Shown here piece after piece: positions 44,834-52,289 of a DNA stretch of 64,000 bases. Source of the stretch: Leptodesmis sichuanensis A121 (GTDB lineage Bacteria > Cyanobacteriota > Cyanobacteriia > Leptolyngbyales > Leptolyngbyaceae); NCBI RefSeq assembly GCF_021379005.1, contig NZ_CP075171.1, positions 3,906,001-3,970,000 of the forward strand, in the 5' to 3' direction. Under the pieces are notes generated by a model. That model was not told the DNA's origin, made no database searches, and saw only the letters and a list, made by a program, of their open reading frames with translations. Each line of letters starts with the position of its first letter. Positions within the stretch are counted from its first letter, which is position 1. The position numbers and the translations under genes were made by a program.

Positions 44834-44906
44834 CGGGCTCAACAGGATTCGAACCTGTGACCGATCGCTTAGAAGGCGATTGCTCTATCCACTGAGCTAT
44901 GAGCCC
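44834..44906 (-). tRNA. tRNA-Arg (TCT)
   Basis: A full 73-nt cloverleaf: acceptor GGGCTCA/TGAGCCC, D-stem GCTC/GAGC, anticodon stem ATCGC/GCGAT with loop CTTCTAA (anticodon TCT), TpsiC stem ACAGG/CCTGT with TTCGAAT loop, discriminator G. CCA is not encoded. Confidence 0.97.
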
Positions 44907-45328
44907 CGGCTACTAATATGGAAATGGATCTCACCAACACTCCACTCCATTTTAAGGAGCTTCATGGAAAAAACGTTAACCCATCAGCCATTTATTTCAT
45001 GAAATGTCAGTTGTCCTGAACAACAAACTGTTCTAGCTTACAGTATTGTTGATTGTCCCCTCCAAGCAACCTGGGCACTGAGAGCATGTCACCTTTGCAG
45101 GTTCTCATCCCCCAGCCCCTTCTCCAAACCTGGGAGAAGGGGAGCCGAGCCATCTCAAAGTCCCTCTCCTAATTTGGGAGAGGGATTTAGGGTGAGGGCA
45201 AAAGTGACATGCACCCTGGGCACTCCCTCCTCTCTAAAACTAAGGAAGGTCAAGCTTCAATCCTTTGAGCGGCCTATCCGATGTACACTAAAAGCCCAAA
45301 AGTGGGAATTCCATAAGTTGAGGTTTGC
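44907..45328. other. Gap holding a MITE-like element
   Basis: A 422-base gap between the tRNA and the next small frame. Its main content is the terminal-inverted-repeat unit at 45080-45214. The rest shows no gene. Confidence 0.45.
45070..45224. mobile_element. MITE-like element with 10-bp target duplication
   Basis: A 135-base unit (45080-45214) is flanked by the exact direct repeat CCTGGGCACT (45070-45079 and 45215-45224). Its ends are inverted: GCATGTCACCTTTGC on the left and, on the other strand, GCATGTCACTTTTGC on the right (14 of 15). The interior holds CCCTTCTCC...GGAGAAGGG and CCCTCTCC...GGGAGAGGG hairpins. No coding capacity. This is the structure of a miniature transposable element; its right half is related to 50732-50770. 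Confidence 0.8.
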
Positions 45329-45487
45329 ATGAGCCGGATTAAAATTAACAAACCCAGCGCTATCAAACCCAACAACCAGACACTTTCTTCCGGGTCATCA
45401 AGGCTATGTCCAGAAGATTGGTCTGGGGTACTTCCGGTTCACTTCAGATCCCGACAGGAGAAATTGCTAGTGTCATGTTTATTCTGA
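45329..45487 (+). CDS. Possible 52-aa protein, coupled to the next gene
   Basis: ATG 45329 has GAGG six bases before it and reads MSRIKINKPSAIKPNNQTLS, then RLCPEDWSG, to TGA at 45485-45487. Its end overlaps by 13 bases the ATG 45475 of the next gene, which lacks a well-spaced ribosome site of its own, so translational coupling is plausible. Too short to assign; it may be a real small protein or a leader peptide. Confidence 0.4.
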   Translation: MSRIKINKPSAIKPNNQTLSSGSSRLCPEDWSGVLPVHFRSRQEKLLVSCLF

Positions 45488-46143
45488 AACGGCAGGATGT
45501 TGAGATCTCTAGCATTCAGCACCCCAAACGGGATCAGCAAATTCCTATTTTGACTTATCAGGGACAAACGTTTCGCCTGATCAGTGTCTTTAGTGCCGCT
45601 CAGGAAGAAGATGCTAAAGCCTTCTGGCGAGAATTAACAGATAACCAGGGCAAAGCCTGCGTGCTGCTGGAAGAACCGGAACGGTACAGTGTTTGGGGTA
45701 AAATTCGGCTGGATCAGTTTGCCCATGAAGCGGAACCGACTCACGACTATACAGCCAATCCGGTTTATGTGAAAGGGTGCCTTTTGATGCTGCAAGCCCT
45801 GTCGATCGATATCGAAGATTTACTGGGCCATCGACAGGCAGGACTCTTTCAAAAAGACCTAACGGATGTCTTCAAACAATGGCGGTTTCCCCAAGCCGAT
45901 ACTCCAGAGGCGATTAATCACCTGCTGACAATGGATCCTCTGAATACTGGTCACCTTCCTGCCTGGCAGGAACATCACCTTAATACTTTGTTACAAGAAC
46001 TGCACCGCATCGGTAAATCCTACTTTGGCAATACCAGCTTTACCCCCCGCGCTGTAGATGCCATCCAGGACTTACCTCCAGCCGATAGCCAGCAATTTTT
46101 GGCCTGGTTAAAGCAATCTCCTCCTGGAAAGCTATGGCGCTAG
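45475..46143 (+). CDS. Conserved hypothetical protein, 222 aa
   Basis: A soluble 222-residue protein if started at ATG 45475 (MFILKRQDVEISSIQHPKRD). An upstream ATG at 45406 would add 23 residues that read like non-coding sequence and overlap the small frame before it. The protein has LTYQGQTFRLISVFSAAQEE, LEEPERYSVWGKIRLDQF, and a C-terminal helical half ending QQFLAWLKQSPPGKLWR. No motif or family name recognised. It is cytosolic by composition. Confidence 0.7.
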   Translation: MFILKRQDVEISSIQHPKRDQQIPILTYQGQTFRLISVFSAAQEEDAKAFWRELTDNQGKACVLLEEPERYSVWGKIRLDQFAHEAEPTHDYTANPVYVKGCLLMLQALSIDIEDLLGHRQAGLFQKDLTDVFKQWRFPQADTPEAINHLLTMDPLNTGHLPAWQEHHLNTLLQELHRIGKSYFGNTSFTPRAVDAIQDLPPADSQQFLAWLKQSPPGKLWR

Positions 46144-48715: not shown

Positions 48716-50064
48716 ATGACAGTGTGTAATTCAGAGCTTCGGTACGATTTTTATGCGCCCCGTTCACTCGTGGTGCAATTTTCAGAGCTTGAACTCAGTT
48801 CTGATGCAGGAATTTTGTTGGCGCGTCAAGCTGAAGAGAAGGAGCAGGTTTGTCAGGCATTGGCAGAGAGCATTGAAGAGTGGCGAGACACCAACAAGAT
48901 TACCCACAGCCTGCATCAGTTGGTGAGCCAACGGGTGTATCAGTTAGTGGGTGGGTATGAAGATGCCAATGATAGCAACCAATTGCGATATGATCCGATT
49001 TACAAAATTGCTTGTGGACGACTGCCGCTAGCAGACGAGGAGTTGTTGGCAAGTCAACCGACGATGACTCGGTTGGAGAACCATGTCAGCAAGCGAGAAG
49101 TGTCCAAGATGCGAATCGGATGGTGGAGAGGTTTATTGGCCGCTACCGGGGGGTTCCTCAAGAAATTGTGCTGGATATTGATGGGTGGGACGATCCAACG
49201 CATGGAGAGCAGCAATTAAGCTTCTTCCACGGCTACTATGGACAGCACATGTACTTCCCAGTGCTGATCAACGAGGCCAATAGTGGGTATCCCGTGGTGC
49301 TTCAGTTACGTGCTGGCAATAGTCATCCCGGCAAAGGCGTGGCTGGAATTTTACGCTGGTTGTTCTGGCGGTTGAAACGAGCGTTTCCAGGCGTACGGAT
49401 TATTCTCAGAGCCGATGCTGGTTTTGCCCTGCCAGAAATCTTGCCAGTCTGTGAACGCTCCGGTGTCGGCTATGCCATTGGCTATGCTCGCAATGCAGTA
49501 ACCGAGCGTAAAATTGCACCCTTGTTAGAACGGGCCCGCTTGCAGTGCATCCAAACCGGCGACAAGGCTCGGCTGTTTGATGATGTCTATTACGCCGCAT
49601 CGACTTGGACGTATCCTCGGCGCTTGGTGATGAAGGCCGAATGGCTCCCCAAAGGCCCCAATCCCCGCTTTGTCCTCACCAATTTGGAGTTGCCGCCCCA
49701 AGTCCTCTACGACTCGTTTGATGGCAAACGGGGGGCAGACAGTGAACACCGGATCAAAGAATTGAAGTTGGGTCTGCAAGCCGACCGCCTCAGTTGTCAC
49801 AGTTTTATCGCCAACCAATTTCGCTTGTTACTCGCTCAAGCCGCTTACATCCTGCTGCTCGCCATTCGGCAGGCGGCCACGGGCACTCAGTTCGCCACCG
49901 CTCAAGTGGAGCGTCTGCGCTCGATGCTGATTCAGAGCGCGGCCAGAGTCAAAGTTTCCGCACGACGAGTCCTGGTGGAGTTAGTGGCTTTCTGCCCCTT
50001 TGCCAATGAATTGCGGCGGATTACGCAACACTTACTTCAGCCTCCAGCACTCGCGTTGGGCTAA
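48716..50064 (+). pseudogene. IS1380-family DDE transposase, frameshifted
   Basis: The first part (48716 to about 49099) reads MTVCNSELRYDFYAPRSLVV ... ASQPTMTRLENHVSKRE. The rest continues in the -1 frame from about 49099 to 50064 (QDANRMVERFIGRYRG, VLDIDGWDDPTHGEQQLSFF, ILRADAGFALPEIL, HRIKELKLGLQADRLSCHSF). The first Asp is in DIDGWDD, the second in RADAGF, the acidic Glu in HRIKELK. Combined length of about 449 codons fits the family. One base is missing between about 49090 and 49102; no A-rich slippery site is present, so this is a broken gene and not programmed frameshifting. Confidence 0.85.
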
Positions 50065-50566: not shown

Positions 50567-50731
50567 CAAGCCACTGTGCTGAGTTCGAGGTTAACTGCCG
50601 CCTCTGCATTTTGCCGTTAAACTGAACAAATATGGAACCTAATAATCAACAGGGTTATGAACCGTGACATCAGTGAATTATGATGCCATGAGAGTTGATG
50701 AATAATGACGGTATGCTCTACCCGTAAATTC

Positions 50732-50770
50732 TGCCCTCATCCTAGCCCTCTCCCTGTAGGAGAGGGAACC
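50732..50770. repeat. Half copy of the MITE-like repeat
   Basis: TGCCCTCATCCTAGCCCTCT and the following CCCTGTAGGAGAGGGAACC resemble the right half of the 45080-45214 element (TGCCCTCACCCTAAATCCCTCTCC on the other strand). It includes a CCCTCTCC-GGAGAGGG hairpin. No flanking duplication seen. Confidence 0.6.
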
Positions 50771-50847
50771 AGTAATTGCCCGAAAGCATTTTTTCCAGGA
50801 AGAAGGGTTGGGATAAGGGAAAATTTAGTCACACATCCCGTTAACTT

Positions 50848-50894
50848 CTAATCCCTAATTCCCGATCCCTGATCCCTAATCCCTAATTCCCAAC
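50848..50894. repeat. Degenerate CTAATCC/CTAATTCC heptamers before asnS
   Basis: About six imperfect units of CTAATCC, CTAATTCC, CGATCC and TGATCC lead directly to AACCCCCCC and the asnS ATG at 50901. They replace the region where a ribosome-binding site is expected. Confidence 0.75.
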
Positions 50895-50900
50895 CCCCCC

Positions 50901-52289
50901 ATGACCCAACGCATCATTGATCTCCTCCGCAATGGCCAGCCCAACGAAACTGTCACTGTCAAAGGCTGGGTTCGCACCAAACGAGAGCAAAAAGAATTCA
51001 CCTTTATTGAAGTCAACGATGGCTCCTCAATGGCCGGATTACAGGTGGTGGTGAATCAGGATGTGCCGGGATATGCGGAGACGATGAAGCGGATCAGCAC
51101 CGGAGCTTCAGTGGAAATCGCTGGCACGCTGGTCGAATCTCCTGCCAAAGGACAGCGAATTGAGTTAAGAACGGACTCCATCATTGTTTATGGCGAAGCG
51201 GATCCGGAGACCTATCCCCTCCAGAAAAAACGTCATTCCTTTGAGTTTTTGCGGGAAATTGCCCATTTGCGATCGCGCACTAATACCCTCGGCGCTGTCT
51301 TTCGGGTTCGGAATGCAGCTTCTGCAGCGATTCACCAGTTCTTTCAGGAACGGGGCTTTCTCTGGATTCACACCCCGATCATCAGTGCCAGTGACTGTGA
51401 AGGGGCGGGCGAAATGTTTACGGTCACTGGATTCGACTTGAACAAGGTGCCTTTAACCGCTGACAAACAGGTCGATTACAGCAAGGATTTCTTTGGCAGA
51501 CAGGCTTACCTGACGGTGAGTGGCCAACTGGAGGCGGAAATCATGGCGATGGCCTTTAGCAATGTCTACACCTTCGGGCCAACCTTCCGGGCGGAAAACT
51601 CCAATACGTCTCGCCACCTGGCGGAGTTCTGGATGGTGGAACCGGAGATGGCCTTCTGTGACCTGGAAGGGGACATGAATCTAGCGGAGGAATTCCTTAA
51701 GTCGGTGTTTCAGCACGTCATGAACACCTGCCCGGAGGACATGGAGTTCTTTAATCAGCGGATTGACAACTCGGTGTTAGCGACGGCAGACAACATTATC
51801 AATAACGAGTTTGCGCGGGTGACATATACGGAAGCGATCGCCCTGCTGGAAAAATCCGGCAAGACTTTTGAGTATCCCGTCGAGTGGGGGCTGGATATGC
51901 AATCCGAACATGAGCGCTATCTGGCCGAAGAGTATTTCAAGAAGCCGACGATCGTCACGGATTATCCGGCTCACATCAAAGCCTTTTATATGCGGTTGAA
52001 CGACGATGGCAAAACTGTGCGGGCCATGGATATTCTCGCTCCCAAAATTGGAGAAATCATTGGCGGTTCCCAGCGGGAAGAACGACTGGATGTGCTGGAA
52101 CAACGGATTCAAGATGTTGGATTAGATCCGGCGCCCTACTGGTGGTATCTGGATTTGCGTCGCTATGGTACTGTGCCCCACGCAGGCTTCGGTCTGGGCT
52201 TTGAACGACTGGTGCAATTCATGACTGGCATGGGCAATATCCGGGATGTTATCCCCTTCCCCCGCGCTCCTCAAGAAGTGGAGTTTTAG
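50901..52289 (+). CDS. asnS: Asparaginyl-tRNA synthetase
   Basis: Charges tRNA-Asn with asparagine. The 462-residue class IIb enzyme has an N-terminal OB anticodon-binding domain (about 1-110: [20 protein letters not shown]) and the catalytic core: motif 2-like [22 protein letters not shown], and motif 3 [10 protein letters not shown] near the end. Length is normal. Unusually, no purine-rich ribosome site precedes the ATG, only pyrimidine-rich heptamers. Monocistronic. Confidence 0.96.

Follow-up and report, generated by a model that had tools for sequence, protein, structure and literature searches.

A MITE of Leptodesmis sichuanensis with ISKra4-type ends around a double-hairpin core that recurs between other transposon ends

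Short units with inverted ends and a perfect flanking repeat raise the question of whether they were genuinely inserted and, if so, by which enzyme. One such unit lies in the window, by which we mean the whole stretch of 64,000 nucleotides of Leptodesmis sichuanensis A121 analysed here, between the genes for tRNA-Arg (TCT) (44834-44906, minus strand) and a DUF7469 protein (45406-46143), upstream of both. The initial annotation had read it as a fairly recent, MITE-like insertion of 135 bp with 15-bp near-perfect inverted ends and a perfect 10-bp duplication, whose mobilising transposase was unknown. We therefore asked where the element begins and ends, what could have moved it and what its interior represents.

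Alignment of 30 copies of the element together with their flanks places its limits at GAGAGCATGTCAC and GTGACATGCACCC, which correspond to 45080-45216 and to a length of 137 bp rather than 135 bp; the target duplication is therefore 8 bp, TGGGCACT. The 10-bp repeat CCTGGGCACT does occur at 45070-45079 and 45215-45224, but it was rejected as the duplication because it consists of these 8 bp and the element's own terminal CC, which is matched by chance by a CC in the left flank. The inverted ends were confirmed, with GCATGTCACCTTTGC (45084-45098) and GCAAAAGTGACATGC (45198-45212) matching at 14 of 15 positions, and the 24-nt arms of the element are 79% complementary. It has no coding capacity: none of the ORFs of at least 80 aa reaches into it. 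We took as the marks of a MITE a length of 50-500 bp, the lack of coding capacity, terminal inverted repeats, duplications of fixed length and variable sequence, dispersed copies and the ends of an autonomous insertion sequence (IS); all of these were found for the 137-bp element, including multiple dispersed copies and ends shared with IS. The features considered below are as follows.

45072-45079, no strand: left target-site duplication TGGGCACT, 8 bp, with boundaries from the 30-copy comparison
45080-45216, plus strand: MITE, 137 bp, GAGAGCATGTCAC...GTGACATGCACCC, about 35 copies in the home genome (G000), terminal inverted repeats common to ISKra4-family IS of the same genome
45080-45101, plus strand: left arm, ISKra4-type terminal repeat GAGAGCATGTCACCTTTGCAGG, conserved among the genome's own copies and present as an exact 22-mer in two other cyanobacterial MAGs
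45102-45199, plus strand: double-hairpin core, outer stem CCCTCA/TGAGGG with TT for the first CC here, common to elements with other ends
45116-45142, plus strand: core hairpin 1, from the DNA fold (z = -5.6) and pairing over 61 copies
45158-45188, plus strand: core hairpin 2, from the DNA fold and pairing over 61 copies
45200-45216, plus strand: right arm, reverse complement GGGTGCATGTCACTTTT, of which the first 13 bases are one end of a 1155-bp ISKra4-family IS
45217-45224, no strand: right target-site duplication TGGGCACT, 8 bp, from the copy comparison
50724-50821, minus strand: diverged core-like palindrome without IS ends, 64% identity over 107 aligned columns, E 4e-7

The home genome (5.35 Mb, one contig) holds about 35 near-identical copies of the MITE. 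Exact flanking duplications, nearly all of different sequence, were found genome-wide at 23 of the 30 copies aligned, being 8 bp long in 17 and 9 bp in six, and exact duplications of 5-7 or 10-12 bp were absent from these 30 copies. The mean identity of the 8-bp flanks was 0.77, compared with a permutation maximum of 0.39. The copy number and the 8-9-bp duplications that differ between copies uphold the view that the element is MITE-like and genuinely inserted. Its age needs more careful interpretation. The perfect duplication in the window speaks for a fairly recent event, but the identity of the copy there to the family consensus is only 96.4%, and the 30 copies share a mean pairwise identity of 94.7%, so that the burst cannot be brand new even though many duplications are still perfect. 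Two further cyanobacterial MAGs contain an exact match to the 22-base left end; many of the duplications there have decayed, and flank matches to the insertion sites seen here are short and scattered. The orthologous interval in two genomes of other genera (G013 and G022) is without the MITE and too diverged to reveal the target. Within the home genome, 31 of 33 copies leave ORFs of at least 120 aa uninterrupted, whilst 70% of random window positions fall inside such an ORF; this near-exclusively intergenic placement would result from selection or from target preference.

Four copies are enlarged by inserts of one kind, CTGCCGTGTACACACAAGTC...GTACACAGTAG (L063, with 471 bp; L066, with 315 bp; L073; and L075). 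In each copy the insert sits at the same point, in the loop of hairpin 2, with CCCAATTTGGG-like borders on both sides, and it may be a second, nested repeat that targets the hairpin loop or travels with the MITE. The enlarged copies have differing duplications of their own (GACTCGGCA, 9 bp, for L063 and TGTGATGA, 8 bp, for L066), so it is the ends rather than the length of the interior that govern movement, and the enlarged form, too, has apparently moved.

Searching the genome with the end GTGACATGCACCC returned, besides the MITE copies, pairs of ends lying 1155 bp apart in three places and 1180 bp apart in others. These pairs delimit intact IS, most of them with 9-bp duplications. The 1155-bp IS (L078-L080) has the ends GGGTGCATGTCAC and GGGTGCGTGTCAC and three 9-bp duplications, and the 1180-bp IS (L081-L083) has the end GGGAGCGTGTCAC and likewise 9-bp duplications. 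Their transposases, which we propose as helpers, match the ISKra4-family model NF033572 (E 4e-83 and 9e-76, respectively) with scores of 256-280 bits against a cut-off of 205. The match of the 1180-bp IS falls into two frames (325485-325676 and 325625-326545), which a -1 shift would join. Over 13 bases, GGGTGCATGTCAC, the right end of the MITE and one end of the 1155-bp IS are the same, and the left end GAGAGCATGTCAC has three mismatches to the IS end in 13 positions (GAGAG vs GGGTG). A full-length element with the same kind of ends, which the initial annotation had proposed to look for, is thus present in the same genome as intact ISKra4-family IS of 1155 and 1180 bp, and the transposase that it had called unknown is in all likelihood of this family.

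The duplication lengths deserve comment, since the 1155- and 1180-bp IS leave 9 bp and the MITE 8 bp (17 copies) or 9 bp (six copies). The home genome has 104 matches to the ISKra4 model and its other ISKra4 IS leave 8 or 9 bp; a further type, with the ends GAGTGCATCCCA, gives duplications of both lengths, and a mixture of the two is therefore normal here. The true helper may accordingly be another ISKra4 IS of the home genome, or a relative since lost. Because intact ISKra4 IS with the same kind of ends reside in the same genome, it is almost certainly an ISKra4-family transposase that mobilises the MITE in trans, an action to which the ends, the duplications and the co-residence all point.

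The IS1380 element nearby had been considered not to be the mover, and our results agree with this. Its transposase, at 48716-50064, matches NF033539 in two overlapping ORFs (E 2e-25 and 1e-78) and is probably frameshifted given this split, and its ends are not those of the MITE; within the window, the only matches to the MITE end at one mismatch or fewer are the element's own two ends. Beside the IS1380 element there is a match to the Rfam group II intron family RF00029 (50490-50567, 48 bits). The feature at 50732-50770 had been taken for a related half copy of the MITE; it is instead the diverged, full-length core-like palindrome at 50724-50821, which is without MITE ends. A short tandem repeat of 7/14 bp, CTAATCCCTAATTCCC..., lies at 50848-50897, just upstream of a gene at 50901 that looks like a putative asparaginyl-tRNA synthetase gene.

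This palindrome leads to the interior of the MITE. The core comprises element positions 23-120, about 97 bp with the borders CCCTCATCC...GGTGAGGGC, and the MITE folds as DNA with z = -5.6. Across 61 core copies, 96.7% of stem cells are paired; the stem sequences hardly vary, and differences fall mainly in the loops and in the joint between the hairpins. Compensatory changes were considered as proof of a selected structure, but they amount to only six cells in three pairs, and in 41 of 500 shuffles one control (a) gave as many pairs. With the stems near-fixed and such changes so few, selection on the sequence, or its recent spread, is better shown than selection on pairing. No known RNA family was found for the core; Rfam gave no family match at gathering score over the element and only sub-threshold, chance-like matches for the homologous copy L002.

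Most relatives match the MITE solely over this core. At 80 further loci the core has the same borders, CCCTCATCC and GGTGAGGGC, and differing ends, the homology across end types coming from a similarity search that favours high identity. ISKra4-type ends with 8-9-bp duplications enclose it in the home genome and in ten further genomes, with exact duplications counted in the home genome and in G005, G013, G022, G025, G028, G029, G035 and G049, whilst in four genomes (G004, G104, G136 and G201) it lies between ends of the IS5 type, AGACCTCTTGC, and the 3-bp duplications there are exact; the 12 places in G004 may include the same copy more than once. No full-length IS5 parent with paired ends was seen in G004, but an IS5-family element of 914 bp with the same IS5-type ends and ATA duplications was found on a viral contig (L340), where its two ORFs match NF033581 (E 9e-28 and 1e-17). 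An IS5-ended miniature of 137 bp without the core, also with an ATA duplication, was observed at L343. Among 386 genomes sampled from the cyanobacterial phylum, at least 20 carry the core at E 1e-12 or better, which is a lower bound because only two candidates were scored per genome. Named carriers include plasmids of Kovacikia minuta, Leptolyngbya sp. BL0902, Tolypothrix and Pseudanabaena.

Other surroundings of the core were also seen. In the home genome's own copies L276-L280, and in L354 (G012), it lies between the ends TACAACAAGGCGGAAGT and TGCTCTGTGGCGTAAGT, and four of the five own copies have CTAG at either side. IS701 was considered as the donor of these CTAG-flanked ends and set aside, since the single intact IS701 match that the genome contains showed no convincing matching ends, and this end type was not found in the viral contigs searched. 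Core copies without recognisable IS ends also occur (L262-L264 and L350). At L218 (G031) a direct repeat of about 20 bp, GGCGCTAAGGCACCAAACTG, flanks the core in place of IS-type ends. Two own copies, L258 and L260, have longer flanks in common at either side (AATAGTCCGGACACTTTTGC.. and TAAAGCTGACGGCGTGGCAAGGG..) and possibly lie inside a larger repeat.

Taken together, we consider it very probable that the element is a MITE with ISKra4-type arms, moved by an ISKra4 transposase of the same genome, and that its core is a separate module. The boundaries, duplications, copy number, shared ends and intergenic placement are direct observations, as is the core's position between two kinds of end, each with the matching duplication length. 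Mechanistically, the 22-bp and 17-bp arms bear the recognition ends of ISKra4-family IS, so that a transposase supplied by one of the genome's full-length IS would cut out and insert the MITE, leaving an 8- or 9-bp duplication. The core would be a separate module, found with the same borders between unrelated IS5-family ends elsewhere or without recognisable ends. By its homology it is common to elements served by IS5-family transposases, and we infer at least one event in which new ends were gained by the core, or the core by new ends. It is possible, although we hold this only tentatively, that the double hairpin is selected in its own right and that ends of unrelated transposon families have taken it up time and again, which would let it spread by means of several transposases. 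Any benefit might lie in insulating or protecting the neighbouring gene, or in aiding transposition.

Several other explanations bear on this reading. That there was no insertion at all, and that a static palindromic repeat is flanked by a chance match, might be suggested by the strongly palindromic, low-complexity core, but is refuted by the exact, nearly all different 8- or 9-bp duplications at 23 of 30 copies and can be given practically no weight. A more conventional account would make the MITE an internal-deletion product of a single ISKra4 IS, with the core as leftover IS interior that diversified with the family. Most core copies in relatives are indeed ISKra4-ended, and for one IS type the likeness between arm and IS end extends over about 20 bp (GAGTGCATCCCAGTTTTGTAAG, L124, vs GGGTGCATCCCAGTTTTGCAAG, L246). 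However, the genome search with the element gave no copy inside a full-length ISKra4 IS, IS5-type ends with 3-bp duplications also enclose the core, and the borders of the core stay constant whatever the ends, all of which makes this origin improbable.

How a separate core came to lie between different ends could be explained in more than one way. The core may itself be a mobile or hitch-hiking, REP-like double hairpin with borders of its own, which repeatedly entered existing MITEs and was then carried by them. This would fit the sharp, fixed borders in every end type, the copies without recognisable IS ends (L262-L264 and L350) and the IS5-ended miniatures without a core (L343), but core-only copies could be linked with neither a duplication nor an enzyme, and at no single site was a MITE seen in both core-bearing and core-free form, leaving such mobility conceivable but somewhat doubtful. 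Alternatively, ends may have been swapped by recombination, one MITE or IS becoming nested in another before a deletion, with the core kept as the region of homology. Nesting does occur, as the insert in the hairpin 2 loop of four MITE copies demonstrates, and several core-bearing MITE types exist within one genome; recombination alone, however, would not fix the junction at the same core base in each end type, and we regard this as a possibility of about the same modest standing as a mobile core.

MITEs are usually seen as deletion remnants of one parent IS. What distinguishes the present case is a homologous interior with conserved borders that is enclosed by the ends of either of two unrelated families of DDE transposases, and in each instance the duplication has the length expected of the family. 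If this is confirmed, non-autonomous elements could switch helper without losing their body. This would account for the persistence of such repeats beyond the lifetime of any single transposase, and it would open the function of the core to direct testing.

The MITE itself belongs to a known kind, but we found the core common to two unrelated transposon families described nowhere, a statement we make with reserve; our literature search returned no ISKra4-derived cyanobacterial MITEs and no core common to IS families, with Elhai 2008 and Zhou 2008 lying outside the comparison. The closest likeness is to the ISKra4 family (p-MULT 4; the ISAzba1, ISMich2 and ISKra4 groups; Guerillot et al. 2014, PMC3942029), with which the element shares the kind of 13-bp end and the 8-9-bp duplications. 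In the ISMich2 group the transposase is encoded in two frames joined by a -1 shift (PMC3942029), an arrangement that the split match in the 1180-bp IS resembles. Unlike the ISKra4 IS, the 137-bp MITE is non-coding and without any IS interior. Nezha and other cyanobacterial MITEs (Zhou et al. 2008, as related in PMC10969869 and PMC3733652) are, by that description, likewise short and non-coding with terminal inverted repeats. The IS5 family (NF033581, DDE_Tnp_4) supplies the ends AGACCTCTTGCAAAAGTC that flank the same core in other genomes; these ends are absent from the MITE in the window, and IS5 duplications are 3 bp compared with the 8-9 bp of the MITE. Cyanobacterial REP palindromes and small dispersed repeats, as outlined in PMC3733652 and the works that it cites, are similarly short, intergenic, palindromic and present in many copies, but REPs are tied to RAYT/IS200-type enzymes, whereas the MITE has terminal repeats and duplications of the DDE-transposase kind.
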